A stretch of 32,827 nt of DNA from an uncultured Bacilli bacterium (GTDB taxonomy: Bacteria > Bacillota_I > Bacilli_A > ML615J-28 > CAG-698), in contig CANQVC010000017.1 of NCBI GenBank assembly GCA_947627195.1, positions 1 through 32,827 on the forward strand. The letters are read 5' to 3'. Shown piece by piece: positions 7,470-31,337 of this stretch. Positions within the stretch are counted from its first letter, which is position 1, and each line of letters begins with the position of its first letter. The position numbers were made by a program, and so were the translations under genes. The notes beneath the pieces were generated by a model, which did no database searches, was not told where the DNA came from, and was given only the letters and a program-made list of their open reading frames with translations.

Positions 7470-8060
7470 ATGAACTATGGATATGTAAGAGTTTCATCTG
7501 CAACACAAAATATTACTAGACAAATGGAAGAAATGTATAAATTAGGATTAAATGATGATTTTATATATATTGACAAACAAAGTGGAAAAGACTTTAATAG
7601 AGAAAATTATCAATTATTAAAAAGTAAATTAAAAAAAGGCGACCTATTAATTATAAAATCAATAGATCGCCTTGGTAGAAATTATGATATGATTATAAAT
7701 GAATGGAGTGAAATAACAAAAATAATTGAATCAAATATTTTTGTTATTGATTTTCCTTTATTAGATACTAGAGTAGAAAATAAAAATCTTGTTGGTAAAT
7801 TCATTAGTGATATTGTATTACAAGTATTAAGTTTTGTTGCTCAAAATGAAAGAGAAAACATTAAAATTAGACAAGCTGAAGGAATTAGAATTGCGAAAGC
7901 TAATGGTGTTCACATGGGAAGACCTAAATATAAATTACCAAATAACTTTGAAGAAATTGTACATAAATTCCACAATAAAGAAATAACAAATATTAATGCA
8001 GCTAAATTATTAAATATGACTAGGGGTACATTTTTAAAATATGCGAAAATGTATAAATAA
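7470..8060 (+). CDS. Small serine resolvase/invertase (Hin/Tn3 resolvase type)
   Basis: 196 residues, the usual size. The catalytic domain opens with YGYVRVSSATQ, with the nucleophile Ser at residue 9 or 10. IKSIDRLGRNYD carries the conserved Arg pair near 67-70, followed by the long E helix with NERENIKIRQAEGI. GVHMGRPK marks the linker to a C-terminal helix-turn-helix (INAAKLLNMTRGTFLKY). A GGAGGA site stands 7 nt before the ATG. It would catalyse site-specific inversion or resolution through a phosphoserine DNA link. It is the only plus-strand gene in the left 31 kb and meets the AAA+ gene tail to tail with no gap. The decayed fragment at 620-739 is from a relative. Its target site is unknown. 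Confidence 0.92.
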   Translation: MNYGYVRVSSATQNITRQMEEMYKLGLNDDFIYIDKQSGKDFNRENYQLLKSKLKKGDLLIIKSIDRLGRNYDMIINEWSEITKIIESNIFVIDFPLLDTRVENKNLVGKFISDIVLQVLSFVAQNERENIKIRQAEGIRIAKANGVHMGRPKYKLPNNFEEIVHKFHNKEITNINAAKLLNMTRGTFLKYAKMYK

Positions 8061-14885: not shown

Positions 14886-15016
14886 CAGCTAGATTTTATA
14901 GTGTAGTTAAATTTATTAAATTATTTTAAAAATTAGATATGTTTTATTTATTATTTTTTTTGAAAGAAAACAAAAAATTTCTAATAACAATTTAACTATA
15001 TTACAAAATAATTAAT

Positions 15017-15523
15017 TTAACTAACTAATGAAAGTCTTATAACATGAATTTGATTGATTGGTTCCTCAAGATTCATTCGGGAAAATTGAAGGCAAAACAT
15101 TGTACCATCTACTAAATTCCATTGAAACCAAATAGCACCTGAGCCAAATTCTTCTTGTGGTTTCCCAATTAGTTCAACAACTTCATCAAAAGTCATTCCA
15201 TATACAATCATGTTTTTAACATCTTCAAATGTTAAGTCATAAGTTAAATTAGGATCACATCTTTCTGTAACACAATGTCCAAAAACTCCATATAAATTTT
15301 CGATTGTTTTTTCTTCAGTAACAAGCTTATTTTCTTTTTCATTATCTTTATTCTCTTCTTTTTCTAATTCATTAGATTCATTTTTAGAGTCAGAAATGTT
15401 TTCTTCGGTATTTTCATCAACTATTGTTTCTTCTATATTATCTTTATTAGAAACTTTATAAACAATACCTAATAAAGCAACACATGTTAGAATAACAACA
15501 CCAAAAAATATTAACTTTTTCAT
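15017..15523 (-). CDS. Membrane-anchored SmpA/OmlA-like (BLIP-fold) protein
   Basis: 168 residues. An N-terminal hydrophobic segment (about 3-23) anchors or exports the protein. A highly acidic, Glu/Asn-rich linker follows (about 28-72). The C-terminal ~90 residues contain IVYGMTFDEVVELIGKPQEE, the helix-turn of the SmpA/OmlA small-domain superfamily, then FGSGAIWFQWNL and a beta-rich end. In that superfamily the domain is a binding module; here the partner is unknown. An AGGAGG site precedes the ATG. The gene lies 24 nt after a related gene, so the pair is probably a duplication. Confidence 0.65.
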   Translation of the reverse strand: MKKLIFFGVVILTCVALLGIVYKVSNKDNIEETIVDENTEENISDSKNESNELEKEENKDNEKENKLVTEEKTIENLYGVFGHCVTERCDPNLTYDLTFEDVKNMIVYGMTFDEVVELIGKPQEEFGSGAIWFQWNLVDGTMFCLQFSRMNLEEPINQIHVIRLSLVS

Positions 15524-15547
15524 GTTTAGTTTTTCCTCCTTTCATGC

Positions 15548-15934
15548 TTATGAAACAACAATTCTTGAAACAACATATGTTTCATTATCATATGCATAAT
15601 GAACTATTAATGTTCTATCATTATTTAGATAATATTGATGAATAATTACACCACTTCCAAATAAATATCCAAGCGTTCCCAAATTAAATGAAACTTCATC
15701 AATTGTCATACCAACTTTAATTGATTCAACTAAATGTGCAGAAATAGTAGGAACTGAATCAATACCTAAAATAGATTCATTTTTATAATAATCGATGTTT
15801 GATATAGGTGTAGTTGAACTAGCCATATTATTCCAAGGAGTAAGCATATAAAAGCCTAAAAAAACATCATAAGCTCCTCTATTACAAGTTGGTAGTGTAT
15901 ATAGGATTATTATTTTACCCAACTCAATAAACAA
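15548..15934 (-). CDS. SmpA/OmlA-like protein, N-terminus possibly degraded
   Basis: 128 residues from a TTG at 15934, which has no convincing ribosome site. The open frame continues a few codons further up (IIFALLFIELGKIIILYTLP), which looks like the end of a signal peptide, then meets TAG. The true start is therefore unclear and the 5' end may be decayed. The C-terminal half has IKVGMTIDEVSFNLGTLG, FGSGVIIHQYYL and a beta-rich tail, matching the domain of the next gene (VGMTxDEV..LG...FGSG). It is probably co-transcribed with that gene up to the terminator at 14851-14885. Confidence 0.5.
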   Translation of the reverse strand: MFIELGKIIILYTLPTCNRGAYDVFLGFYMLTPWNNMASSTTPISNIDYYKNESILGIDSVPTISAHLVESIKVGMTIDEVSFNLGTLGYLFGSGVIIHQYYLNNDRTLIVHYAYDNETYVVSRIVVS

Positions 15935-16238
15935 TAAAGCAAAAATAATTCTTCTAAACTACTCTATTGTATATTTACTTTTATCATTCCTATATATTTA
16001 TTATAAAACATTTCAATAAAATATGCAACTGTTTTATTAATTTTTTCTGATTATTTTATGATATATTTAAAATAGTTATCTTTTAAATGCTTTAATAAAT
16101 TTATGTTAGCCTTGAAAAGTTCGAATCTTATTAATTCATAGAATTGTTGAAAATGGAGCCGTTAAAATGAAACATTTTGTCCTAAATGATTATCTTTAAA
16201 AAGTTCAATAAAATTGCTATTTTTATATAAAAAACATT

Positions 16239-16271
16239 AAAAAAAGCCCTAAAACTATCATATTTTAGAGC
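16239..16271 (-). terminator. Terminator ending putative small RNA 2
   Basis: GCTCTAAAA/TTTTAGGGC forms a 9-bp stem (one G-U) on the minus strand, followed by seven T (16239-16245). Confidence 0.7.
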
Positions 16272-16361
16272 ACATTTGGCTATAAAGCCTATTATTCTTC
16301 CTAAATGTCTAGGTGGTACGAAAAGGCTGCATTCATTAATAGACCAAGTGCTTTTCTTTAA
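16239..16361 (-). ncRNA. Putative small RNA 2, second copy of the family
   Basis: A -10 TATAAT (16368-16373) with a weak -35 TTAGTA 17 nt away lies at the same place in the repeat as in copy 1. The RNA would run from about 16361 to the terminator at 16239-16271, about 122 nt. The shared core 16295-16405 differs from copy 1 mostly by transitions; one outer pair changes on both sides (GGCT/AGCC here, GACT/AGTC in copy 1), as expected if it is base-paired. The rest of 15935-16835 is AT-rich and I see no gene in it apart from the terminator at 16695-16733. Confidence 0.45.
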
Positions 16362-16694
16362 GCCAAAATTATATTGTCATAAAATCAACTTACTAAAGTG
16401 AATCGAAATAGTTAGTAAAATTTATAATTGTTTTTATGATTCTTTTCACATCACAAACTATTAATAATACAATATAAACATATTTTTAAAAGAATTGTTA
16501 AATTGATAATTTATTTTTATTTCTATAAAAATGCGTCCAACTTTCTTGAGTATGTTCAATTATTTCATAAAAGTAATAATACAATAGGGAGATATACGTT
16601 CACTCTGATCCATAAAATGATTAAAAATGCAATATTGTACATGAAATTATAATTTTAAATAGTGCAATGAATTAATCATGTTTATATAAAAATA

Positions 16695-16835: not shown

Positions 16836-18455
16836 TCATATTATTTCTTCTTCTATTTCATATCCTCCCTTTAATACAATTACTATACTATTTTTCATTA
16901 CTTTAATATATGAAACTATTCTTCTAATCATATCATCATTATAAGTAAGCAAATAATGATTATCATCCATTAAAAATTCCTTAATTTTTTCTATTTCAAT
17001 ATTAATTTCTTTTTTTTCTTTTGACTTTTCTCTCTCAATTTCTAATTCATCTCTCAATGAAACGATTTGTAATGTTAAATTTTTAATTTCTTCATCATAT
17101 CTTTTTTTATCGCCTTTAGTGTTTATTCTCATAGAAATAGTATCATCTCTTAATTTGTTTAGTTCATTAATTTGATTTTCTATTGCATATACATTTAAAA
17201 AACAATCATCTTTAGATATTTCATAAGATAAATTATTTGTTATCATACTTACAATTTCTTCTTTTTCGTCTATAACTTTATTTATACTTCTAATAATAAT
17301 TTGTTTTAATTCTTCATCTTCAATACTAATTGAATGTTTACATATTTTTGCACCATATTTAATTCTGTTTAGACAACGCCATACTATTTTCTTTTTATTA
17401 TTTCTTGTCCAACTTTTTCTTCTATAGCAACTACCACATTCACCACAAACTAATAAATCTGTTAATGCATATTTTCCACTATACTTGCTTTTTTTAGTTA
17501 ATCCATTCATTATTGTTTTCTTTTTTGTACATCTTTTAGCTATTTCAAGTTGTACTGCTTTAAATATACTTTTATCAATAATTGGCTTATGACTATTTTT
17601 TATTAAATATTTTGCCATTTCTCCATGATTAATTTTTTTCTTTTTTGAAATACAATTTTCCGTATATGTTTTTTGTAAAAGCATCTCTCCACAATATCTT
17701 TCATTTGTTAATATTCGTAATATTACAGATTTACTCCATATTTCTTTTCCTCTTGTTGTGGAATAATGATTTGATTCTAAATATTCTTTTATTTGATCTA
17801 CACTTTTACCATCTAAATACATTTGATATATTTTTCTAATTATTTCTGCTTCTTTTTCAACTATTTCTGGTTCGCCATTTGCACCTTTTTTATAACCTAA
17901 AATATTATATCTAAAAGCATATGTCCCTGCTTTCATTCTTTGTTGAATTCCCCATCTAACATTAGCACTTATATTTTCACTTTCTGCTTGAGCTAAAACA
18001 CTATAAAACCCTATAAACATTTCACTATCTATATTAAGCGTATTTATATTTTGTTCTTCAAAGAAAATGCCTATTCCTTTAGCTTTTAATTTTCTAACAT
18101 ATTTTAAACTATCAACCGTATTTCTAGCAAATCTTGCAACTGATTTTGTTAAAATTAAATCGATTTTACCCTTTTCACAATCTTTAATCATTTTTAAAAA
18201 ATTAACTCTACTTTTTGCTTGAGTACCACTAATACCTTCATCTGCATAAATATTAACAAATTGCCAACTGGGATTTTTATAAATCAAGTCTGTATAGTAC
18301 TTAACTTGGGCTTTATAAGATTCTATTTGATCCTCTGTATCAGTTGATACTCTACAATAAGCTGCTACCCGTAAAATTTTATAACTATTTTTTTCAATTG
18401 ATAACATTGGATTGGCTTCTATTTTAGTTACTATCTTTCTTGATTCTATCTCCAT
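16836..18455 (-). CDS. Large serine recombinase (third gene of the triplet)
   Basis: 539 residues, complete. The resolvase domain starts VAAYCRVSTD with the nucleophile at Ser37. YADEGISGT and ILTKSVARFARN carry the conserved Arg residues, and AEEE-like AQAESENISANVRWG follows. The Recombinase domain (about 180-290) holds NILGYKKGANGEPEI and SVDQIKEYLES. The zinc ribbon is CGECG...WRCLNR...KIC, followed by a coiled coil with a hydrophobic C-terminus. Such enzymes integrate and excise elements between attP and attB. It starts 1 nt after the TGA of the gene before it, so it is translationally coupled, and it ends at the terminator 16695-16733. Confidence 0.93.
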   Translation of the reverse strand: MEIESRKIVTKIEANPMLSIEKNSYKILRVAAYCRVSTDTEDQIESYKAQVKYYTDLIYKNPSWQFVNIYADEGISGTQAKSRVNFLKMIKDCEKGKIDLILTKSVARFARNTVDSLKYVRKLKAKGIGIFFEEQNINTLNIDSEMFIGFYSVLAQAESENISANVRWGIQQRMKAGTYAFRYNILGYKKGANGEPEIVEKEAEIIRKIYQMYLDGKSVDQIKEYLESNHYSTTRGKEIWSKSVILRILTNERYCGEMLLQKTYTENCISKKKKINHGEMAKYLIKNSHKPIIDKSIFKAVQLEIAKRCTKKKTIMNGLTKKSKYSGKYALTDLLVCGECGSCYRRKSWTRNNKKKIVWRCLNRIKYGAKICKHSISIEDEELKQIIIRSINKVIDEKEEIVSMITNNLSYEISKDDCFLNVYAIENQINELNKLRDDTISMRINTKGDKKRYDEEIKNLTLQIVSLRDELEIEREKSKEKKEINIEIEKIKEFLMDDNHYLLTYNDDMIRRIVSYIKVMKNSIVIVLKGGYEIEEEII

Positions 18456-18456
18456 T

Positions 18457-19314
18457 TCAATATTCTCCTATCATTATTTCTATTTTTATATCATTTAAAA
18501 AAATAATTTCTACCACACCTGTTTTATTAATTTTAATTTTTTTAATTACCTTTCTAATATATTCATTATTAATATCTTGAATGTTTTTTATCTTTTTTAT
18601 ATTTTCAATGATATATTTTGTTTCACCATTTAAATATGTTTTATAGCTTCGGAATCTTTTACTAGCCATTTCCATAATTATTTTTTTAGTTGTATTAAAA
18701 TTTTCTATTTCGTTTTCCAACAACTTTTTAATATCATTTTTGTATTTCATTTCAGCTAGTAATATTTCTTTATTTTTATCTATATCGTTTTTTTCATTAA
18801 TTTCATTTCTATTTAAAAATTCAATAGATGCAAAATAAATTGATTTAATAAGGTCATCTAAATATATATTTTTTTCACATTTACATCTGTTTTTACACTT
18901 TAATTCTCTTTTCCCATATGAAGTTTTTACTAGATTATATGTTCCACCACAGAAGCTACAATTAATTATTCGCTTTATATTTTTTTCTAAACTACTACAA
19001 ACGATGTTTTTACAACCTTTACTTATTTTTAACTGATTTGCATTAGTAAAATCATCAATATTTATAATCTTAGGATAGTTATTTAAACCAATATATTTTT
19101 TTTCTTCAATAATTCGATTGATTTTGTTCTTATTCCACGTTGCTTGATTTTGGCTAAACGATATATGTCTTTCATTTAATTTATTTGATATTTCTTTTAA
19201 AGACTGTCCGTTTATATAATTTTTAAATATTTCTTTTACAACTTCAGCTTCCTGTGAATGAATTGTAATTGTGCCATTTTGAATATAATATCCATATATT
19301 ATATTTCTATACAT
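18457..19314 (-). CDS. Serine-recombinase homologue lacking the catalytic domain (middle of triplet)
   Basis: About 285 residues. The protein begins directly in the Recombinase DNA-binding domain (NIIYGYYIQNGTITIHSQ, EVVKEIFKNYINGQSLKEIS). It then has a zinc ribbon (CSFCGG...CKNRCKC) and a coiled-coil tail like its neighbours. There is no YCRVS catalytic block, and the preceding DNA belongs to the end of the upstream gene, so the resolvase domain is absent and not merely frameshifted. I chose ATG at 19314 (GGTGA site); TTG 19329 or GTG 19326 would add five or four residues and overlap the previous gene. It may be an accessory DNA-binding subunit, for example a directionality partner. That is inference. 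Confidence 0.8.
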   Translation of the reverse strand: MYRNIIYGYYIQNGTITIHSQEAEVVKEIFKNYINGQSLKEISNKLNERHISFSQNQATWNKNKINRIIEEKKYIGLNNYPKIINIDDFTNANQLKISKGCKNIVCSSLEKNIKRIINCSFCGGTYNLVKTSYGKRELKCKNRCKCEKNIYLDDLIKSIYFASIEFLNRNEINEKNDIDKNKEILLAEMKYKNDIKKLLENEIENFNTTKKIIMEMASKRFRSYKTYLNGETKYIIENIKKIKNIQDINNEYIRKVIKKIKINKTGVVEIIFLNDIKIEIMIGEY

Positions 19315-19318
19315 TCTA

Positions 19319-20860
19319 CTATTCACCAACTTCCATATTTAAATTTAAATCTCCTATTAAACGAAATGTTAATGTTCTGTCGGTTTCAACAAATATTTTA
19401 TCAACCATTCTGTTGAATAACTCTAAATTGAATTCAATCATATAATTTTCTTCTTCAACTATTTTTTTTAATTCTTTTAGCTGTTCTACAATTAATTCAT
19501 CTTTATCTTCTCTAATTAATTTTTTTCTTCCGCTTTTTAAAAAATCTAAACTTTTGCTTGCTTTATTCATTTTTTCAACATAAGATACTTCATCAATTAA
19601 TGAAAGATTGTATAATTCATTATAGGATTCAATCATTTCACTAAGCGAAAAAATCTCTTCATCAATTTCACTTATCTCTTTGTTTGTTTCATTTTCTTTA
19701 TTTTTCAAAATCATAAGAAATGAGATAGTATCATCTATAATAAATTTTTTGATATCTTTTAACTTATTAAACATTTGAATAAAACATTTTTTAATAGAAA
19801 AAGTTGAAAATGGGATAGCATTGCAATCTGTAATAAAATTTCTTTTTTTAGAACACACCCAATATACATCATCTTTTCTTTCGATAGAGCGATAACGTTG
19901 ATGACAATTTCTACATTCAATTTTATTTGTAAAACAAAAATATTTTTTTTCCGTACCATGAAAAAATTTTTCTCTTTTTGCCTTTCTTATTTGCTGAGCT
20001 AAATTATAAATTTCTTTTTCGATAATAGGTTCATGATTATTTTCATAATAATACATAGGAAGTTCGCCTTTATTTAATCTTTTTTTTAATGGTAAACTAT
20101 TAGGAGTATATGTTTTTTGATTAAGAGAATCACCTATATATTTTTCGTTATTTAAAATATATCTAATTTGTTCAATTCGAAAATCTAATTGATTTTCTTT
20201 TTTTAAAATACTTGCAATTTTATATGTCCCCATTCCATTTATATATAATTCAAATATTTTTTTAACAATTTTTGCTTCTTCTTCATTAATTACTAATTCG
20301 TTCTTGTCTAAACGATATCCATATGGTGCATTTTTTAATTTATAAGTTCCATCAGCCATTTTCATTCTAATTGAAGTTGCCATTCTTCTAGATGCTCCCA
20401 ACACTTCATCTTGAGCAAATGCACTTTTAATGTATAGAATCATCTCTGAATTCATATTTTTTGTATCAATATTATCATTTTCAAAAAATACACTAACACC
20501 ACAAGAGGATAAAGTTCTAATAGTTTCTATACATTCCAATGAATTTCTAGCAAAACGTGTAACACTTTTTACAAGTATTCGATCAATCTTTTTATTCATA
20601 CAATCTTTTATTAATCTTTTAAAATCTTCTCTTTTTTCTATTGAAGCTCCACTAATTCCTTCATCTGCATAAATATCAACTAAAATCATTTCTTGACTAT
20701 GATTTTTAATATATTCATTATAATAATTAATTTGCGCAAAAAAAGAGTTTGCTTGATCATTTGAATCTGTACTTACTCTACAATATGGAGCAACTCTTAT
20801 TTTTTTATTTTCATCTTCCATTGATGAAATTACGATTACTTCTTTTTTTGTATTATTCAT
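19319..20860 (-). CDS. Large serine recombinase (first gene of the triplet)
   Basis: 513 residues. The catalytic block APYCRVSTDSNDQ has the nucleophile at Ser30. YADEGISGAS and ILVKSVTRFARN follow. The usual Glu-rich helix here reads AQDEVLGASRRMATS, more divergent than in the 539-residue enzyme. Recombinase domain: APYGYRLDKNELVINEEE. Zinc ribbon: CRNCHQRYR...WVCSKK. A long charged coiled coil follows. Triplets of serine recombinases are known from some Firmicutes ICEs, from memory including streptococcal ones. It is transcribed after the SHOCT-like gene, 11 nt away, and its 3' end overlaps or touches the start of the catalytic-domain-less gene. Confidence 0.92.
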   Translation of the reverse strand: MNNTKKEVIVISSMEDENKKIRVAPYCRVSTDSNDQANSFFAQINYYNEYIKNHSQEMILVDIYADEGISGASIEKREDFKRLIKDCMNKKIDRILVKSVTRFARNSLECIETIRTLSSCGVSVFFENDNIDTKNMNSEMILYIKSAFAQDEVLGASRRMATSIRMKMADGTYKLKNAPYGYRLDKNELVINEEEAKIVKKIFELYINGMGTYKIASILKKENQLDFRIEQIRYILNNEKYIGDSLNQKTYTPNSLPLKKRLNKGELPMYYYENNHEPIIEKEIYNLAQQIRKAKREKFFHGTEKKYFCFTNKIECRNCHQRYRSIERKDDVYWVCSKKRNFITDCNAIPFSTFSIKKCFIQMFNKLKDIKKFIIDDTISFLMILKNKENETNKEISEIDEEIFSLSEMIESYNELYNLSLIDEVSYVEKMNKASKSLDFLKSGRKKLIREDKDELIVEQLKELKKIVEEENYMIEFNLELFNRMVDKIFVETDRTLTFRLIGDLNLNMEVGE

Positions 20861-20871
20861 ATTTTCCTCTT

Positions 20872-21033
20872 TTACTCAATATTAATTACTCTACAGCCTA
20901 GGCTATTAGCATTCCTAATGTTTAATTTTTTTGCTATTTCCTGTGTAATTAATTTTTCATTGCATAATTGTTTTATTATTGATACACTTAAAAAATAAAT
21001 AATTTCATTTCTAATATTTTTGTCTACGCTTAT
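20872..21033 (-). CDS. Small SHOCT-like protein with apparent ATA start
   Basis: 53 codons not called as a standard frame. The sequence NEIIYFLSVSIIKQLCNEKLITQEIAKKLN resembles the small SHOCT-like proteins (...LL..GLIT.EE...) that often precede recombinase genes in Firmicutes elements. A perfect AAAGGAGG site stands exactly 7 nt before an in-frame ATA codon at 21031-21033; no ATG, GTG or TTG is available in frame near it. Either ATA is used as a rare start or the start has mutated. The stop lies 11 nt before the first recombinase gene, so coupling is likely. The family assignment is by eye and not certain. Confidence 0.55.
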   Translation of the reverse strand: MSVDKNIRNEIIYFLSVSIIKQLCNEKLITQEIAKKLNIRNANSLGCRVINIE

Positions 21034-21738: not shown

Positions 21739-22098
21739 TTAATCTGAATATACTAATTCATTTAAAATTCTATTTTCAATAATCATTTTTACTTCATTTT
21801 CTCTCAATAAATCTGTAACATAATTCCCTGTCTTTCGATATTCTTTTTTAGTTGATAGATTGTTATACATCGTTGAATACATTTTATCAGCCTCAAAATC
21901 AATATTATGAAGATATTCAATTAATGAATTACCAAGCGCTATATATTTACCATAATTGTGATTTTCTAGATATTCTTTTGCAAGAATTCCATATTTACCA
22001 AATACTTCTTTTTTGATTTTACTTCCTTTTTGATAGCCAATTATTTCCTCCTTACTAAACAGTGTTTTTTCTTTTTTTAATTCTTTAGAATTTTGCAT
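21739..22098 (-). CDS. tnpV: TnpV family transposon protein
   Basis: 119 residues matching the TnpV layout known from clostridial transposons. A basic start is followed by KYGILAKEYLENHNYGKYIALGNSLIEYL, HNIDFEADKMYSTM and the typical end ENRILNELVYSD (compare ...NSIRNRAEEIILNELIYS). TnpV is found next to serine-recombinase modules, where its role is unproven. The gene has a GGAGGA site and a consensus promoter with palindromic operator directly upstream, so it heads the operon that leads to the recombinases. Confidence 0.75.
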   Translation of the reverse strand: MQNSKELKKEKTLFSKEEIIGYQKGSKIKKEVFGKYGILAKEYLENHNYGKYIALGNSLIEYLHNIDFEADKMYSTMYNNLSTKKEYRKTGNYVTDLLRENEVKMIIENRILNELVYSD

Positions 22099-22175: not shown

Positions 22176-24869
22176 TTAACTAATTAAAAAAGCTACTCCT
22201 CTTACTAAATATGGTATCGCTACAATAATAACAAAAATTATAACCAATCCTATTATATAGTTTACTAACATTTTTTTAGCCTTTGCTTTATCTTCATTTT
22301 TATGAGCAATAATAATTGCTATTCCCATAGCAATACTCCAAATTCCACATGTTGCCAGTAAAATCCATATAATATAAGGAATATAAGTATTTGTTATATT
22401 TATGACATAATTAGCTACTTTTTCATATTGATTACCTATTTTTTCTACATAAATATCACCGCACAATGAACATTGATATGTTCTTTCAATAACTCCATCT
22501 TCATTTTTTTCTTCTATTAATTCATAATTATGCGAAAGAATAGGAATAATTTGATTATATGAATCACTACATTTATCGCAGACAAATAGCCTTTCGCCAG
22601 TCGCTTCACAAGTTGCTTCATTTACTATTTTACTTATGTAACTATGTCCATAAGGTAAAATTTCATTTTCTAAAAACTCATAATTACATATACTACACAC
22701 ATGAAATGTTCCTCCACTTTCAGTGCAAGTAGGTTCTTTTTCTTTTTCTTTAAAGCTGTGTCCGATAGCTTCTGTTACTTCGTCAATATAATTATCTTCA
22801 CATCTTACACACTTATAAAGAGTATAACCTCTATCCATACATGTAGGCAAAACTACTTTTTTATCATATGAATGTCCTAAAGCATTAGTATAATAATCTT
22901 TGTAACTATTTTTACATACTTCACATTCATAATAGGTAAAGCCTTTTTCTAAACAACTTGCTTCAACAATTGTTTCATTATAACTATGTTGAACTAGGTC
23001 TGTTACATTTGTTCTTAATTTTGCACCACACGTTATACATTCATTTAATGTATATCCCATTTCTATACAACTTGGTTTAATAATATTTACGACTTTATAT
23101 TTATGAGATATTGTAAAATCGTAATTCCTAGTTTTAAAATATGAATTAATTACAACCACATGATATGTATTTTCTTCACGAATAATTGCTCCACTATAAT
23201 AAACTACTCCATTAATCCTAACGTCATAGTCCATATCAGTCCAACTTAATTTATAATAATTTGAGTTTTCAAAATATTCAATATTGATTTCTGGAAACGG
23301 AAACTCTAATTCAATCCATACTTCGTCACTTTTATTTTGATATTTATCAACTGCATAAAATCGATAAATTCCTTCATCCATTTGAGTTGTAACATTGAAT
23401 ATTATGTCTGATGAATTATGAAATATAGAATCATTAGGTCCTTTGTAGTATAAAGTAAATTTACTCGCATCACTAGCGCTAACTGAAAAATCATTACTTG
23501 TAGATGATCCAAATGAAGCCCCATTACTAATCAATATTGGAGCCTCATTATCTAATGTCACTGAATATGTTATTGATTTATTTCCAGCAACATCATAACA
23601 ATAAATCATATAAGTTCCATTTTCTGTATATCTATCTACTTTAGTTATTAAACTATAAGTATCAGATGATGGTGTTTTTAAAAATATACTGCTAACAGTA
23701 CTTCCAGTACCATCAAAAGAAAATGTAATATATTTCGCATTTGTAAATCCATTATTTAAAACAACATCAGTTTCACCATATATTTTAATAAGTGGTGCTT
23801 TACTATCTAAATATACTTCTCTTTCAGCAGAATAATTTCCAGCTTTATCAATTGTTCTAAATGAATATGTTCCATTAGTGCTATTAGCTTCTATCAATTC
23901 ACCATTGTATATCTCCCAGCCTGAATTAGGTTTCTTACATTCTAAGCGTTCAATTCCACTTTCATTATCTGTTCCTTTATATCTAAAACTATAATTTACA
24001 ATACTTCCTGACATTCCATTTCCACTAGAATTATATAACATACCCGTTGGAATTTTATCATCATAATTTACATAATATGTACTACTTTTGTTTTGTGCTT
24101 TATCAATTGCATAAAATTCATATAATCCTATTTTCCCTTTTTGAATTGTTATGGGATTATCTACTTTCTCATATGAACTTGAATCAGGAGATTTCATATA
24201 TAGATCAACTCCATTATTTCCATTATCACTTGCACTAACAATAAAACTTGTATTTTTATAATAATCTGTTTTATTTGTAGAAGCACCCATAATAATTGGC
24301 TTTGTACTATCTATTATGAATGAATATGAAATATTATATGTTGTAGTACTTTGTGTATAATTTGGATATGATGACATATAATCACCTGAGTGCCATTCTA
24401 AATTAATATAATATGCTCCATCACTTAATGTGCCATTAAATAGGCAAGTTGGTTGACTTGCTGTATTGCTACTTGTTACAACTGTCCCATTTATATTACG
24501 TATAGAATACGAATTAATTGTTGAGCCTCCTCGAATAGTATAATCCGTCTCAACAAATATAGAAACACTATTAAAATTAAAAATACTGCCAGATGCAGCT
24601 TCAACAGTTGATTCCTTTGACAATGGTTTTTTTAAAGTTATTTTTAGTGTCTTGGGATAATAACTTCCTGCTTCAAGTACACTATCACTTCCATTTGTAA
24701 TTGTAGGTGATGGCATTCCATATCCTATAAATGATTTTGTATAATCTACTTTCAAAAGATAATTTGTTGGTGTTGCAGCTTTTACAAAATTTTTCTCAGA
24801 TGTAAATATTAAGCCAAAAGTCAAACTTACAACAACAATTGCCACAACTATTTTAATGATTTTTTTCAT
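22176..24869 (-). CDS. Large exported protein: Ig-like repeats, Cys-rich repeats and a C-terminal pilin-like domain
   Basis: 897 residues. A signal peptide ends near FVKAATPT. After a beta-rich N-domain, Ig-like repeats run over about 185-545, each ending in a phrase such as YLDSKAPLI or TLDNEAPIL and containing YxFYAIDKAQNKS. From about 597 to 805 are Cys-rich units (C-x9/10-CxxC-...-H). The last ~80 residues hold two membrane segments around IIIAHKNEDKAKAKKML...YIIGLVIIFVIIVAIPYLVRG, closely matching the separate 98-residue pilin-like protein at 28756-29052 (IAIAHRNEEKINARDMI...IIGIVIIFVVAMGAPLLIKG). It lies last in the conjugation operon, 17 nt after virB4. An exposed adhesin carried on a pilin-type base is the likely reading; this is inference. 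Confidence 0.85.
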   Translation of the reverse strand: MKKIIKIVVAIVVVSLTFGLIFTSEKNFVKAATPTNYLLKVDYTKSFIGYGMPSPTITNGSDSVLEAGSYYPKTLKITLKKPLSKESTVEAASGSIFNFNSVSIFVETDYTIRGGSTINSYSIRNINGTVVTSSNTASQPTCLFNGTLSDGAYYINLEWHSGDYMSSYPNYTQSTTTYNISYSFIIDSTKPIIMGASTNKTDYYKNTSFIVSASDNGNNGVDLYMKSPDSSSYEKVDNPITIQKGKIGLYEFYAIDKAQNKSSTYYVNYDDKIPTGMLYNSSGNGMSGSIVNYSFRYKGTDNESGIERLECKKPNSGWEIYNGELIEANSTNGTYSFRTIDKAGNYSAEREVYLDSKAPLIKIYGETDVVLNNGFTNAKYITFSFDGTGSTVSSIFLKTPSSDTYSLITKVDRYTENGTYMIYCYDVAGNKSITYSVTLDNEAPILISNGASFGSSTSNDFSVSASDASKFTLYYKGPNDSIFHNSSDIIFNVTTQMDEGIYRFYAVDKYQNKSDEVWIELEFPFPEINIEYFENSNYYKLSWTDMDYDVRINGVVYYSGAIIREENTYHVVVINSYFKTRNYDFTISHKYKVVNIIKPSCIEMGYTLNECITCGAKLRTNVTDLVQHSYNETIVEASCLEKGFTYYECEVCKNSYKDYYTNALGHSYDKKVVLPTCMDRGYTLYKCVRCEDNYIDEVTEAIGHSFKEKEKEPTCTESGGTFHVCSICNYEFLENEILPYGHSYISKIVNEATCEATGERLFVCDKCSDSYNQIIPILSHNYELIEEKNEDGVIERTYQCSLCGDIYVEKIGNQYEKVANYVINITNTYIPYIIWILLATCGIWSIAMGIAIIIAHKNEDKAKAKKMLVNYIIGLVIIFVIIVAIPYLVRGVAFLIS

Positions 24870-24886
24870 TTTCTCTCTCCTTTCAT

Positions 24887-27502
24887 TTATTGGTCTTCAA
24901 ATAATCTTTTTACACTTTCCAACGTTACTATTTTTATCATATTTCTTAACTCTGTTGAACCAATGAAAAATGTTTCTCCTGTAGCTGCTGATATAATCAT
25001 TCTTTGTTCTTCATCGTTGAAACTTTCGCCCGCTTTATAAACATCAAGTACATCTTTCATATCTGGTGCAGATAATTTAAATATAAAAGTATATTGACTA
25101 TTCTTTAAAATTGTAGAGGTTTTATTTCTTAGTTCTTCATTCCCATTCCAGTCTGCTATATTTTGTGTTGCTGGTATAAATGCACCATTATATTTTCTTA
25201 TTCTTTTATTCATTGAATAAAAAAAGTCGAGCGCTATTGGAAACTTACTATCAATGAACAAATGTGCCTCATCACATACAATCATTGTCCTTAAATTACT
25301 ACCATTTCTATTCAATTCTCTTGCATTAATTATTTCCTGTTCAATAAATCGAAAGACTAATAACATTTGAGCATTTGCAACTACATTATTTTTGTTTGCA
25401 AATAAAGATTGAAAATTGAAATCTATTAAATTAGCATTTACTTCCAATGTCGATGGAGCATTCCAAATATCTGAATATCTTCCATTCACAAATTTTTCTA
25501 AATAAAGTTCTGCCGTTCTTAAATCTTTTAATGACAAATTATCTAAAGACGATTTATCTTTATTTTTAAGAACATTTAATAAATCACTAAAAATAGGATA
25601 GTCATTTGCTGATAAAGAACTGCAATCCGTTTTCTCTGTAATACCTTTTAATGCATATGCTTCAACCGCTAAATTATTAATCAATTCTATAACATCACTA
25701 CTTGCTCCTACCATTACAATTTTAAAGAATGATTCGAGCATTTTAAGATGTGTATTAAACGTAATAACAGAATCAGCTATAGATCCATCTTCTGATAAAA
25801 TTTTATAAATATGAAATGGATTAATTCTTCCTTCTTTTGCGTTTCCTACATCAATAATATTTCCATAAAGATTTTTGGTTAGATGAATATATTCCGCTTC
25901 TGGATCTAAAATAATTACTCTAGTATCATTTGCCCATTCATTGCTTATTAAGCTTTTAAGAAAAAATGATTTTCCACTTCCACTTTTACCTATTATCATA
26001 GCATTTGAGTTTTGATAAAGATTACCCCTTTTCCACAAATTAAAAATAAAGGGATAATGATTATTTTTGTTTTCCCCAAGCATAATACCTCCATCATCCA
26101 TTACAAATGTTTTAACAAAAGGAAAAACTGCTGCAAGAGTAGAGCTATTAATTCCTCTTTCATAATTAATCAAATTTTTCTCTGGATTAATGCTTGATAT
26201 TTTAAAGCCATCAATTTGTAAACCATATAATGTTGAAATTTTAAAATTTTTAGACATGATTTCTCTTTTAACTTTTTTCTTATAATTAATGTCATTTAAA
26301 TAGTTATATGTGGTAATTGTAAAACTAACATCAAATAAGTTTTCATTTTCAGCTTGTAACCTATCTAGCAAAGTATTCATTGATTCACGATGTATTTGTG
26401 CTTTGTTTTCTTCACTTGCCTTTTCACTTATTATTTCCTTTGTTTCCATTTCTGATATACACTTATCTATTCTTTTAATTGCTTTATATTTATCAACTGG
26501 TTTAATTCTCATAACAACTTTTGTATTGGGAATATTAAATATTTCACTGCCCCAAGCATTTTTAGCTCTTAATGGATAATCACTTATTATCATTGTTGAA
26601 GCTTCAATATTATCTATCATATATTTATTTGCATTAAAAGTCACTTCATTAGGTTCTATCCAATTCACCAATTCATTTTCTGGGATATTTTTTATTTCTC
26701 TTTCATCAAAATTTCTTGAATTAGAATATTTTAAAAATATAGCAACTTCATTCTGATTTAAAATTTTACTATCTATTCCACATCTTGTCATTCTACTTGC
26801 TATATTAATTGTTACATTATCTAAATCAAGTTCGTTTTTACCATAAATAACAAAATAAAAATCAGATAAATATTTTTTTCTAACATTATTTAATTTATCA
26901 ATTCTATCTATTCTTTCCTGCAAAATTTCAGCTTTGATTTTTTGAATTTCTTTTTTCTCATCTTCTTTAATATTATTTAACCTTTCAAATAATTCTTTAG
27001 AATAAATATCTAGATTTACTGGTCGATCTATTTTTACTATATCTAAAAATTGAGTTGCATCTAATTCTTTTAAGGCATTCTCAAAATAATCAATATCTAG
27101 ATTTTGTTCATTAATATCTTCTATTCCAAAGTTTTTCTGCCCTATTTTTATAACTCTTCCAAAATAACCATTTTGATATTCAATTGTTCCACTTGTTTTT
27201 ATATTTTTTAATGAAACAATTCTATTAATATTTTCTTTTGGCTTTTGACTATTTTTTTTAAATTTCTTTTTTGAAAAAAGAAATTTAATGTTTTCAAATA
27301 TATATGAATAAAATATACCATCACTCGTTGGCATAAACATAACTATTGATAAAAATAACAGAAAAATTGCAAAACCCCATTTGTTTTGAGTTATTAAAAT
27401 AAAAATAAGCATAAATACTATTAGCGCAACAATAACATCAATAATGCTATACGATTTCCATACAGTGTTTTTTACTTTGATTTTTTTAGGTATTATTCTC
27501 AT
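24887..27502 (-). CDS. virB4: Conjugal transfer ATPase VirB4/TraE (Mbov_0397-like) with N-terminal PrgI-like membrane part
   Basis: 871 residues. Residues 1-75 contain two membrane segments (SIIDVIVALIVFMLIFILI and WGFAIFLLFLSIVMF) like a fused PrgI/VirB3 domain. The VirB4 N-domain follows. The ATPase core has Walker A MIIGKSGSGKSFFLKS (about 505-520), IILDPEAEY, Walker B MIVCDEAHLFI (about 740-750) and PATQNIADW. VirB4 powers assembly and substrate transfer of the type IV secretion channel at the membrane. It starts 2 nt after the VirB6-like gene stops. The order pilin-membrane protein-VirB4 is that of the Mycoplasma bovis ICE families Mbov_0395-0397. Confidence 0.93.
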   Translation of the reverse strand: MRIIPKKIKVKNTVWKSYSIIDVIVALIVFMLIFILITQNKWGFAIFLLFLSIVMFMPTSDGIFYSYIFENIKFLFSKKKFKKNSQKPKENINRIVSLKNIKTSGTIEYQNGYFGRVIKIGQKNFGIEDINEQNLDIDYFENALKELDATQFLDIVKIDRPVNLDIYSKELFERLNNIKEDEKKEIQKIKAEILQERIDRIDKLNNVRKKYLSDFYFVIYGKNELDLDNVTINIASRMTRCGIDSKILNQNEVAIFLKYSNSRNFDEREIKNIPENELVNWIEPNEVTFNANKYMIDNIEASTMIISDYPLRAKNAWGSEIFNIPNTKVVMRIKPVDKYKAIKRIDKCISEMETKEIISEKASEENKAQIHRESMNTLLDRLQAENENLFDVSFTITTYNYLNDINYKKKVKREIMSKNFKISTLYGLQIDGFKISSINPEKNLINYERGINSSTLAAVFPFVKTFVMDDGGIMLGENKNNHYPFIFNLWKRGNLYQNSNAMIIGKSGSGKSFFLKSLISNEWANDTRVIILDPEAEYIHLTKNLYGNIIDVGNAKEGRINPFHIYKILSEDGSIADSVITFNTHLKMLESFFKIVMVGASSDVIELINNLAVEAYALKGITEKTDCSSLSANDYPIFSDLLNVLKNKDKSSLDNLSLKDLRTAELYLEKFVNGRYSDIWNAPSTLEVNANLIDFNFQSLFANKNNVVANAQMLLVFRFIEQEIINARELNRNGSNLRTMIVCDEAHLFIDSKFPIALDFFYSMNKRIRKYNGAFIPATQNIADWNGNEELRNKTSTILKNSQYTFIFKLSAPDMKDVLDVYKAGESFNDEEQRMIISAATGETFFIGSTELRNMIKIVTLESVKRLFEDQ

Positions 27503-27504
27503 AT

Positions 27505-28683
27505 CTAACTTTCTTCTCCTTCACTAGTTTCACCATCTTCATTATCTAGTGTTTCCTTATATTTATTGCTATCATCATTTTCTTTCTTTTCATTATTTCC
27601 TTTTCTATGAGTAACGTTTCTAACACCTTTTATTAATTTCGAAGCGACTCCAATTGTCATTGCACTTGCAATTCTTGTACCATAAAAAGCACTTCGCAAA
27701 AATGTACCACCTGCATGCATATCATCTGCTTGTCCAAACATTTTTGCAAATAATGCTTGTCCACTAGGAATAACTAATGCTCCTCCTATTATCATAAAAA
27801 TTAAAAATATCGAATTTGCGAAATTCGATGCCCCAACAACACGCATTTTTGAAATCATTGGGAAAATCAAAACAAAAATATTAACTGAAAAAATTGTTCC
27901 ATATGATAATAAAATCTTTGTAATAAAACTTTCACGCCATACTTTAAATCTTGCACCATCATCTAATGCTATTGTAGACATAGAAAAAGGTAAACTAATA
28001 TATAAAAGCATTATTTCATATACTCTTTTTGCTAAATTAACTATTGCAACAACTAAAGCTATCATTAAACCAATTGATGCAATCATTGCAGGTAAATACA
28101 TAAAGCTATTGGGATTTACCATTCCATTGCATTTCCACCCCGTTGGCCATATTCCAAATAATGCTTTGTTATAATCACCAAATATTTCTCTAACAGATAG
28201 TGACGAAACATTTACCTCATTTATACTATATCCATTTAGCCACTCACCTACACAAGCATTGAATACAGCATTTGATAATTTTGTTGTATTTCCTATTTCA
28301 AATATTTTAGAAACCAAAACTAAAATAGAATTTGATATTAATATTCCCAAAATAACTACTGCAAGCATAGCCATTGTTCCAAGTAATGATAGAAAAAATT
28401 TACCTAATATTGAAGACAGATTTCTATTACTTGCAATAAAATTTTTTATTATTGCACAAATTGTAAATATACAGGTCAAACCTATTGCCAAAATAAAAAC
28501 ACACCAAAATATAGTTCCAACAGTACTATCAGATGCTAAAAATTCAATAATATTAACTTCCTTACCCTGATATGTAACGTTTGTTACTCCTGCAATTGCA
28601 CTAAAAATTTCCATAATTCCATCTATTAATTTTAAAAACCAAATAAATATCAGTAAAATTAATTCTTGAAAAAAAATTAACAT
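27505..28683 (-). CDS. VirB6/TrbL-like conjugation membrane protein (Mbov_0396-like)
   Basis: 392 residues with about seven or eight membrane segments, for example ELILLIFIWFLKLIDGIMEI, FWCVFILAIGLTCIFTICAII and MIASIGLMIALVVAIVNLAK. A central loop has WPTGWKCNG, then LLYISLPFSMSTIALDDGARFKVWRESF, and the C-terminal tail is charged and cytoplasmic (about 345-392). The pattern resembles the ICE transmembrane protein family placed directly before the VirB4-type ATPase in mycoplasma ICEs. It would form the inner-membrane core of the secretion channel. The annotation rests on topology and gene order more than on motifs. Confidence 0.8.
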   Translation of the reverse strand: MLIFFQELILLIFIWFLKLIDGIMEIFSAIAGVTNVTYQGKEVNIIEFLASDSTVGTIFWCVFILAIGLTCIFTICAIIKNFIASNRNLSSILGKFFLSLLGTMAMLAVVILGILISNSILVLVSKIFEIGNTTKLSNAVFNACVGEWLNGYSINEVNVSSLSVREIFGDYNKALFGIWPTGWKCNGMVNPNSFMYLPAMIASIGLMIALVVAIVNLAKRVYEIMLLYISLPFSMSTIALDDGARFKVWRESFITKILLSYGTIFSVNIFVLIFPMISKMRVVGASNFANSIFLIFMIIGGALVIPSGQALFAKMFGQADDMHAGGTFLRSAFYGTRIASAMTIGVASKLIKGVRNVTHRKGNNEKKENDDSNKYKETLDNEDGETSEGEES

Positions 28684-28707
28684 TTATATTCCTCTTTCTT
28701 TAATAAT

Positions 28708-28736
28708 GCCACTAGGAAAGATTATTTCTTAGTAGC
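28708..28736 (-). other. Intercistronic hairpin between pilin and VirB6-like genes
   Basis: In minus-strand RNA, GCTACTAAGAAA pairs with TCTTTCCTAGTGGC (12 pairs, one mismatch, one G-U). There is no T-run, so it is probably not a terminator. A stable hairpin right after a pilin-type gene could protect the upstream mRNA and favour pilin over channel proteins. Confidence 0.5.
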
Positions 28737-28755
28737 TTTTATCATTTTCCCTTAT

Positions 28756-29052
28756 TTAGGCGCCTATACCAACCCAGCTTGCTAAACCTTTGATTAATAA
28801 TGGAGCTCCCATAGCTACAACAAAAATAATCACTATTCCAATAATTAAATTTTTAATCATATCACGTGCATTAATCTTTTCCTCATTACGATGTGCTATT
28901 GCGATTTTAATACCTACATATGCACCCCATACAACTACAACTGCAGCAAGTGCCATTACAATATAAATCCAAAAACTATTCATCAATTCATTTAATTTAG
29001 TTATAATCCCTTGTAGAGATTCATTTAAAGTTGCTTCTGCTAAAAATTTCAT
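28756..29052 (-). CDS. Pilin-like conjugal transfer protein (Mbov_0395/VirB2-like)
   Basis: 98 residues. A short amphipathic N-part (LNESLQGIITKLNELMNS) is followed by a membrane segment, FWIYIVMALAAVVVVWGAYVG, a basic cytoplasmic loop, AHRNEEKINARDM, and a second segment, LIIGIVIIFVVAMGAPLLIKG. Two hydrophobic helices joined by a short charged loop is the VirB2/TrbC pilin design, and the NEEK loop is typical of the ICE pilin-like family. It would form a short pilus or the outer conduit. It lies just upstream of the VirB6-like and virB4 genes. The same domain recurs at the C-terminus of the 897-residue protein. Confidence 0.82.
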   Translation of the reverse strand: MKFLAEATLNESLQGIITKLNELMNSFWIYIVMALAAVVVVWGAYVGIKIAIAHRNEEKINARDMIKNLIIGIVIIFVVAMGAPLLIKGLASWVGIGA

Positions 29053-29072
29053 TTATTTAATTCCTTTCTTTT

Positions 29073-30557
29073 TTATTTTCTTTTTTTTATTTTTATAAAT
29101 ATAATAATTCCACTAATTCCAAGGCCTAATAATACAATTGTCAAAATAATAGGCACAATTACCTTTACTTTATTATCGTTTTTATTAGTACTAGGTAATA
29201 CTTCTTGTTTATCTTTTTCATTATCATTTGCATTTTCTTTATCACTTGGCGAGACATTTTCAATATCTTGATCTAAATCTTTATCGTTATCTACTGGTAC
29301 ATCTTGAATTGGTTCATCTTCTTTTGGAGGTGATACTTCTTCACCAGAATAATTACTATTTTCAATAACAAAACTAGTTATAATTACACCTTTTTTATTT
29401 AATATAGTTATTTGACAATTGTCTTGCAATATTGAAAAATCCACATAACCATATTGATTTATTTCCAAAATTATACTTTTATCATTAATTGTTGTAGCAA
29501 TAAGTTCTAATTCATTATTATTCACATTACCACATTCACATCTATTACTAATAAATAAAAGCTTTCTTATTTCGTCTAATTCTGTATAAAGCATATAATC
29601 GTGAATATGTTCTACTACTTGTGGTGGATCATTATAACTATTATCTTGACTTGTTGAAAAATTTGATAAATAACTATAATCACATCTATTACAAACGTGT
29701 TTAATACACCCTATCGTTCCATTATCCGAATTAATTAATACGTCAAAAAATTCATGTCCTAATGGTTTAATATAATCCGTAACATATCTATCGTTACATA
29801 CACTACATAAATGTTCCGTAAAACCATATGATGAACATGTAGCACTTATTTTATTTTCAGTATAGCTATGACCAAGTGGCATCGTATATTTACCCTGATA
29901 ACTATAATCACACGCTTCACAACGATAAGTTGTAAATCCACCCTCTAAACAATTAGGCTTCTTTTCATCCTCGTTAAATGTATGTCCTAATTTACTAATA
30001 TAATTATCGTTATATGAATAACCACAAGCATCACACAAATGATGCGTATATCCATCCGTTTCGCATGTTACTTCTTTTATTTCATCTATATAATGATGTC
30101 CTAAGGCTTCACTAAATTCATCTGTATATTCATATCCACAAGTTGTACAAAAATATGTTGTATAACCTTTATGAGTACATGTGGGCTTTACAACTACTGA
30201 TTTGTACGTGTGATTTCTTTTTTTACTTGTAATTTCTTTGTAATTAAAACCACACATCCGACATGTATAACTAATATAAGATCCATCTTCACAACTCACA
30301 TCAATAACTTTTTCTTCAAAATCATGATTTAATCGCTCTATGTAATTATCCTTATAAGTTTCATTACAATAAACACAAGTATAGATTGTATATCCATCAC
30401 TTGAACAAGTTGCACTTATTTCTTTTTGCTCATATAAATGTTTACAATCTTCATTTTCTTTAGCATAAATATTTGTTTTTAAATATCCTAAAAAAATTGA
30501 TATAATAAAAACACTAACAATTATGCCATAAATAAAATATTTTTTTATTTTTCTCAA
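29073..30557 (-). CDS. Cys-rich repeat surface protein of the conjugation operon, possible LPxTG-like anchor
   Basis: 494 residues from a TTG start with a perfect AAAGGAGG site. A signal peptide or anchor occupies about 8-28. Seven Cys-rich units of about 41 residues follow (about 38-330), each C-x9/10-CxxC-x12/14-H with the phrase LGHxY. A beta-rich domain and an acidic, Pro/Asp/Asn-rich linker follow. The end has LPSTN, a hydrophobic helix (VIVPIILTIVLLGLGISGIIIFI) and KIKKRK, the order of a sortase sorting signal but with Asn in place of Gly. The protein is thus either wall-linked or simply membrane-held. Position between coupling protein and pilin suggests a role in cell contact during transfer. 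The repeat family itself has no known function. Confidence 0.82.
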   Translation of the reverse strand: MRKIKKYFIYGIIVSVFIISIFLGYLKTNIYAKENEDCKHLYEQKEISATCSSDGYTIYTCVYCNETYKDNYIERLNHDFEEKVIDVSCEDGSYISYTCRMCGFNYKEITSKKRNHTYKSVVVKPTCTHKGYTTYFCTTCGYEYTDEFSEALGHHYIDEIKEVTCETDGYTHHLCDACGYSYNDNYISKLGHTFNEDEKKPNCLEGGFTTYRCEACDYSYQGKYTMPLGHSYTENKISATCSSYGFTEHLCSVCNDRYVTDYIKPLGHEFFDVLINSDNGTIGCIKHVCNRCDYSYLSNFSTSQDNSYNDPPQVVEHIHDYMLYTELDEIRKLLFISNRCECGNVNNNELELIATTINDKSIILEINQYGYVDFSILQDNCQITILNKKGVIITSFVIENSNYSGEEVSPPKEDEPIQDVPVDNDKDLDQDIENVSPSDKENANDNEKDKQEVLPSTNKNDNKVKVIVPIILTIVLLGLGISGIIIFIKIKKRK

Positions 30558-30578
30558 TATATTCCTCCTTTGTTTAAA

Positions 30579-31292
30579 TTATTTAGTTGCTAAATTTTGC
30601 AATTCCATTAATTCTGGCATTGCAATTTTTGATATGTATTCAGCTAGATCTTCTATTTTTTGGGCAATGGTTAAATCGTATTTATCTATTAATTCATATA
30701 AAATTATTATTTTATCTTCAAAACGTGTTTCAATTAATTTTTCACGATCTTTCTTTTCAAGCATTGTTGATAAAAATTCAATTCTTTTATTAACATCATC
30801 TATAATTTCATCCCATTTTTTATCAAGTTCTTTTAACTTATTAATATCATACTCCTCATTAATCACGTTATCTTCATCTAATTTATTAATTTCATCGATT
30901 ATTTTATCGTATGTACTTACTCCATCCTTATTTATAATATCAAAGACATAATTTTCTTTTTCGAATAATCTTGCTTCTCTTTTAGACGTGTTTTTTTTAT
31001 CTTCACTAAAATAAAAATGTTTTAATTCATAACTAGGAGTAAAAACTGCCCAAATTGGTTCATATCCTCTTACTGAAACTATTGCATTTCCTTTCTCATT
31101 GCCATTTAGTCTTTCAAGCATACCCATTGTAATAAGCGGTTGATTACTTGCCCCTGTATTACTTGATGCCGATGTTGTAATACTTGTATTAACTGAAAAG
31201 TTCTTAATTTTTTTGTTACCACATAATTCACTAAATTCTTTTCGTGTTTCATTATCATCACTACCAATGAATATTTTTACATTCCTATTCGC
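30579..31292 (-). pseudogene. virD4: C-terminal fragment of a VirD4/TraG coupling protein
   Basis: About 237 residues remain. NVKIFIGSDDNETRKEFSELCG, then LITMGMLERLNGNEKGNAIVSVRGYEPIWAVF, is the C-terminal end of TraG/VirD4 coupling ATPases, which bring the DNA-relaxase complex to the secretion channel. A charged helical tail follows. The Walker motifs and N-terminal membrane anchor are missing. The open frame could start at an ATG at 31322, but that codon lies inside a terminator hairpin of the neighbouring foreign operon and the first ~10 residues are not coupling-protein-like. The break at about 31290-31297 coincides with a jump in G+C. It is either an insertion/deletion junction or an assembly join. 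Confidence 0.75.
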
Positions 31293-31304
31293 TCCGTAGG
31301 GATA

Positions 31305-31337
31305 GAAAAACGACGCAATCATTTCTGACTGCGCCGT
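31305..31337 (-). terminator. Strong terminator of the small-gene operon at the junction
   Basis: A 12-bp stem (ACGGCGCAGTCA/TGATTGCGTCGT, two G-U) with a GAAA loop is followed by TTTTT on the minus strand. Its G+C content is unlike the DNA to its left. It ends the transcript of the genes at 31388-31874. Confidence 0.8.

Follow-up and report, generated by a model that had tools for sequence, protein, structure and literature searches.

A conjugative-type element of an uncultured Bacilli bacterium carries, on its minus strand and enclosed by two complete large serine recombinases (A and C), a recombinase paralogue devoid of catalytic domain (M), which would be, with a probability that we put at roughly 55% from its sequence and a predicted model, a naturally occurring subunit made up of the C-terminal domain alone, binding att DNA and acting together with A and C. 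The usual view of a serine integrase is that of a single-protein machine assisted by a small directionality factor. A conserved subunit consisting only of the C-terminal domain, if this reading is true, would allow the role of that half of the enzyme to be tested on a protein found in nature, would account for the three integrase genes of some elements and might offer a separate handle on direction or site choice for the integrases used in genome engineering. More generally, a gene annotated as 'recombinase family protein' or 'DNA invertase' may lack a catalytic domain.

Transcription on the minus strand runs in the order A, M, C, and the features of the window (the whole stretch of 32,827 nucleotides that was analysed) on which the argument relies are as follows.

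16836..18455, minus strand: C, large serine recombinase of 539 residues with Resolvase and Recombinase domains, zinc ribbon and YCRVS motif (Pfam, motif)
18457..19314, minus strand: M, 285 residues from the ATG at 19314, recombinase paralogue without catalytic (Resolvase) domain
18595..18861, minus strand: predicted coiled coil of M, a long antiparallel helix pair, residues 157-245 (model)
18883..18960, minus strand: zinc-ribbon cysteines of M, C124, C127, C145 and C149 (alignment, model)
19015..19290, minus strand: recombinase domain (RD) of M, residues 14-105 of the 290-residue form (model, Pfam)
19319..20860, minus strand: A, large serine recombinase of 513 residues with Resolvase and Recombinase domains, weak zinc ribbon and YCRVS motif (Pfam, motif)
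20872..21033, minus strand: X, SHOCT_2-like ORF of 53 codons just upstream of A, with GGAGG before its ATA start
21739..22098, minus strand: TnpV-like (PF14198) gene of the element (Pfam)
22176..31322, minus strand: type IV secretion genes of the same element, among them the next four
22176-24869, minus strand: pilin-like tail
24887-27502, minus strand: VirB4/TraG-like ATPase
28756-29052, minus strand: pilin
30579-31322, minus strand: coupling-protein C-terminus

An earlier sequence-only reading had described two complete serine recombinases around a 285-residue protein, which is what we find (the ATG at 19314 gives exactly 285 residues), although the coordinates it gave, 18457-20860, cover A and M and leave out C, the full triplet being 16836-20860. 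It was also right that the genes overlap or touch: 4 nt lie between the stop of A and the start of M, 1 nt between the stop of M and the start of C, and the M ORF can be extended to a TTG at 19329 (290 residues, the mechanical ORF start), in which case it overlaps A. In the source genome (1.84 Mb) there is no other copy of M, two further matches being C and A themselves. The host element has both integrase and secretion genes, and since the latter lie right of the trio, the module is part of a conjugative-type element; no relaxase was observed in the window, whose end lies within the element. To the left of the module are a type III restriction-modification-like pair (ResIII and DNA methylase, 3155-7221, minus strand) and a small resolvase (7470-8060, plus strand).

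What is M? A and C each match Resolvase (PF00239) and Recombinase (PF07508) in Pfam, with Zn_ribbon_recom clear in C and below the cut-off in A, and both have the YCRVS motif; M is without that motif and matches Recombinase only (residues 26-88 of the 290-residue form), which bears out the absence of a catalytic block. The same holds for the 41 M proteins (that of the window plus those of other loci) used for alignment, profile tests and the structure model, none of which matches Resolvase and all of which match Recombinase. In the window M, the zinc ribbon goes uncalled by Pfam, which calls it in 13 of the 41, but its four cysteines (290-residue numbering) are there, and the aligned columns keep C127 in 41 proteins, C124 in 39, C149 in 36 and C145 in 26. 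An AlphaFold model of the window M (pLDDT 90.5, 41-row alignment) has a recombinase domain, a zinc ribbon, helices 157-205 and 211-245 and a C-terminal strand region, the two long antiparallel helices forming the predicted coiled coil, which is inserted in the zinc domain, so that the three parts that M had been said to keep are accounted for by Pfam, by the cysteines and the model, and by the model, respectively. In a Foldseek search of the PDB, this model has serine integrases at all of ranks 1-22, as do VIA-align rows 1-23 (Z 15.3 to 8.2), and its residues 7-282 align to residues 169-535 of the SPbeta integrase, i.e. the portion behind the catalytic domain. The M sequence profile reaches the SPbeta integrase (E 3e-14) and, over 8-268, structures of the A118 integrase C-terminal domain (E 2e-4 to 3e-4). 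Judged by these structure and profile matches, M is in sequence and predicted fold the C-terminal half of a serine integrase.

M thus shares with the SPbeta (SprA/YokA), A118, Bxb1 and phiC31 integrases their recombinase domain, zinc ribbon and coiled coil, but differs in that it has no catalytic domain and a shorter RD and tail. By medians, its RD is ~30 residues and its CxxC-to-end stretch ~40 residues shorter than in A and C, and DNA contacts may as a result be weaker or different. The nearest curated model is the SCC recombinase CcrA (NCBIfam NF047344), matched by 40 of 41 M proteins (best E 2.2e-14), while the CcrB model matches seven and the CcrC model three; CcrA has a catalytic domain, however, and M scores far below its cut-off (the window M matches positions 155-437 of 442 with 29 bits, against 700 bits). 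Staphylococcal CcrAA was considered as a precedent and set aside: the one paper with both terms does not mention a missing catalytic domain in the part available. Another relative is PHROG 7701 (137 positions), which short forms of M match end to end (all three that were tested, E 1e-47 to 3e-53); each of the 41 long M gives a partial match. This family corresponds to the recombinase domain only, without the catalytic part, and its label 'DNA invertase' is misleading.

How widespread is this layout? A close homologue of the window M was found in none of 60 related genomes, a partial match in 17 of them. An equal layout is present on the Ruminococcus albus 7 plasmid pRUMAL02 (L053), with a middle gene of 291 residues, and on unannotated gut contigs; Flavonifractor plautii ATCC 29863 (L120) is another commensal that carries the module. 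A scan independent of M, with the recombinase plus zinc-ribbon part of seven C enzymes as query, fetched 121 loci, 80 from genomes (the best 80 of 387) and 41 from viral contigs. The comparison of homologous triplets proposed in the sequence-only reading largely favours a middle gene without Resolvase domain, which precedes C in 85 of these 121 loci (one, L100, added by hand), although the query enzymes come from triplets with M and the scan therefore leans to that clade. In detail, 72 loci read large serine recombinase (LSR)-M-C, with L100 a further such locus misread owing to an overlong ORF, and in another 12 M precedes C but A is cut, missing or damaged. An LSR lies directly upstream of C in 18 (L100, three junctions with another element and 14 doublets), a recombinase-domain gene is absent within 900 bp in 10, eight are cut by a contig edge and one has no ORF. 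Apart from L100 and the junction L129, no genome locus (0/80) has a complete LSR in the middle place. The doublets, all on viral contigs, stand against a universal M, and the idea that their first members are CcrA-like ancestors of M is unsupported, as the four tested fit CcrB better.

In total, 144 loci gave 87 triplets LSR/Resolvase-less/LSR at 86 loci, forming 57 clusters when C is grouped at 90% identity; since a middle gene without Resolvase domain (no hit at E 0.01 in 87) was the criterion for inclusion, the absence of this domain from M is no separate finding. What could have varied in the set is the flanking enzymes, and they are complete: C keeps seven catalytic positions including the serine in 87/87, and A has its catalytic serine intact in 80/80 cases whose ORF reaches it, the seven A without N-terminus lying at contig edges (four) or being truncated (three). 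Packing is tight, with an A-M spacing of -25 to +30 nt in 76 of the 87 triplets (exactly -4 in 38) and with no more than 50 nt between M and C in 80, and it is only in this sense that the earlier statement that the three are made together holds. M ranges from 137 to 350 residues (median 269). Five short M of 137-140 residues have neither zinc ribbon nor coiled coil, a sixth (143 residues, L034) lies at a contig edge, and six further M have 173-216 residues; the existence of forms of 137-143 residues without these parts means that the coiled coil is not essential to all M. One M (L153) is split into two ORFs. In another run (L131:293-6788), two M genes occur in the order LSR-M-LSR-M-LSR, and in the tree described below the central LSR belongs to the A group.

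The histories of the three genes also run in parallel. In a quick tree of 109 rows, built from the recombinase domain onward and with no root inferred, all 26 M and three short M fall to the same side of a branch supported at 97, A and C group according to position, and the window groups with L187 and L191 for each member (support 100 for A, 98 for M and 100 for C); two long-branched M rows (L086 and L087) are of uncertain placement. Distances are correlated in 54 triplets (Mantel r 0.88 for A-M, 0.87 for A-C and 0.83 for M-C, each at the permutation floor), and by these sequence comparisons the history of M follows that of A and C. M is the fastest-evolving of the three, with a mean identity of 30% vs 41% for A and 47% for C. 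Purifying selection, which had been proposed as a check, is evident in pairs among relatives only (22 pairs, the window in none, of which those with dS of 0.05 to 2 were used): the median dN/dS is 0.156 for M (18 pairs, range 0.10 to 0.35) vs 0.159 for A (14 pairs) and 0.103 for C (18 pairs). Judged from the sequences of these relatives, M is under constraint like A's. The outcome named beforehand as fatal, full-length middle genes in relatives and decay in this copy, was unseen, since the middle gene is conserved, constrained and Resolvase-less; and because the trio is conserved in many related bacteria, M is very probably a functioning component rather than a wreck.

The sequence-only reading stated that triplets are known in some ICEs, and they are. 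Those of Streptococcus resemble ours in having three adjacent genes of the serine recombinase family that point the same way and lie at the margin of conjugative elements, and in that members (external, middle and internal) group by position; they differ in that, as far as the part of the report available goes, all 42 serine integrases have a Resolvase domain, which the middle one here never has (PMC4701971). Two loci in our set of contigs (L177 and L194) have full triplets, with three Resolvase domains, presumably of the Streptococcus kind, and these form a separate clade with support 99. Being a clade of their own in the quick tree, they leave an origin of M from their middle member unsupported. 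A middle gene without catalytic domain in a serine recombinase triplet was not found in the literature searched, which left most subscription papers outside its coverage and so is weak evidence of novelty.

How might such a protein work? The C-terminal half of LSRs carries att DNA recognition, and their coiled coil guides synapsis, controls direction and blocks the reverse reaction (PMC3783163). In the mechanism that we favour, the integration module of the conjugative-type element is a tightly packed X-A-M-C set in which (i) A and C are the catalytically complete serine integrases, (ii) M, as the natural counterpart of an isolated integrase C-terminal domain, would bind att half-sites or adjacent DNA without cutting, (iii) M would contact A and C, the three proteins making up one recombination complex and (iv) M would, within this complex, shape synapsis, site choice or direction. 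A more ambitious version, which we hold only tentatively, is a division of labour between two cutting subunits and an obligatory DNA-binding-only M, whose part would be to keep hold of att DNA and to steer synapsis; some lineages would add a catalytic-domain-only subunit without the serine, R (see below). Such a division would turn a serine integrase into a multi-protein complex rather than a single enzyme.

The competing explanation that survives best, although we consider it rather unlikely, is that M acts outside the productive complex as a brake or autoregulator, sitting on att half-sites or on the operon promoter and limiting A and C. A competitor would naturally take the form of a DNA-binding domain that has no catalytic activity, and M is encoded within the same operon-like block as the enzymes that it would limit, but a brake does not need the strict middle position of M nor the parallel histories of A, M and C. 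Somewhat less likely still is that M serves synapsis or site choice only, direction being set by X. Serine integrases are known to have small accessory proteins as their directionality factors, and X is a competing, better candidate for this function than M. X-like ORFs precede A in 59 of the 87 triplets (40 of 57 clusters), the window included, and SHOCT_2, tested on three X, matches one above the Pfam cut-off and two below it, among them that of the window (E 0.002). The start codon, behind a good ribosome-binding site, is ATA in the window and in L191, and TTG in L187. Yet 28 of the 87 triplets have no X within 1.8 kb upstream, and a direction-setting X is compatible with M as a DNA-binding subunit of the complex rather than opposed to it. 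Finally, that M is the decaying remnant of a third full recombinase is very improbable, for, although full triplets exist and M evolves faster than its neighbours, decay is ruled out as a general account by 87 cases of M with intact frame, by a constraint equal to A's and by the tree, in which the full triplets stand apart. A frameshift or an unseen catalytic remnant between A and M is likewise excluded, since these genes touch in most triplets and leave no room for it.

The att DNA that M would bind, as a subunit working with A and C, was sought by the comparison with an empty site that had been suggested, and neither attL/attR nor an empty site was found; the contig ends inside the element. 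The only genome of the same genus shares the neighbouring EamA gene (79%) but has no flanking DNA past it, and the flank adjoining C (15000-16560 of the window) is repeated at several other places of the source genome. Near-identical triplets, when compared, revealed an IS-like insertion in one case (L100) and a cargo insertion in another (L089), with clean ends in neither. The cargo of the latter, ~70-3425 bp after C, looks by eye like arsenic resistance, and the block has a terminator-like repeat at both ends.

Some triplets have in addition small genes with a Resolvase domain only (R), before A or between M and C. In 14 of the 57 clusters, 23 were flagged, none in the window; two are exceptions, one a piece of A (L130) and the other part of another element (L110). 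The remaining 21, in 13 clusters (L098, L104, L106, L107, L111, L112, L114, L117, L122, L138, L139, L141, L143, L144, L145, L151, L152, L175, L051, L052 and L055), are ~117-189 residues long, with one longer ORF, and 19 are without the active-site serine (one by an alignment gap); R of L114 keeps the serine and has lost the neighbouring arginine, and that of L122 keeps both. Of 14 pairs, 13 give a dN/dS of 0.20 to 0.62 and one has no synonymous change, so by this sequence measure R is under weaker constraint than M. R may possibly represent dead catalytic-domain-only partners.

A last observation concerns six loci with a disrupted recombinase gene, the break being in each at one and the same codon of the Resolvase-domain stretch encoding Tyr-Ala-Asp-Glu-Gly. 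The interrupted gene is C in L125, L129 and L177, A in L110, R in L105 and an LSR in L194, and in all but L125, which starts too close to show them, full-triplet genes are present upstream of the junction (five of six loci). Judging from these junction sequences, an element with a full triplet appears to enter resident recombinase genes at a single codon position and thereby to break them.
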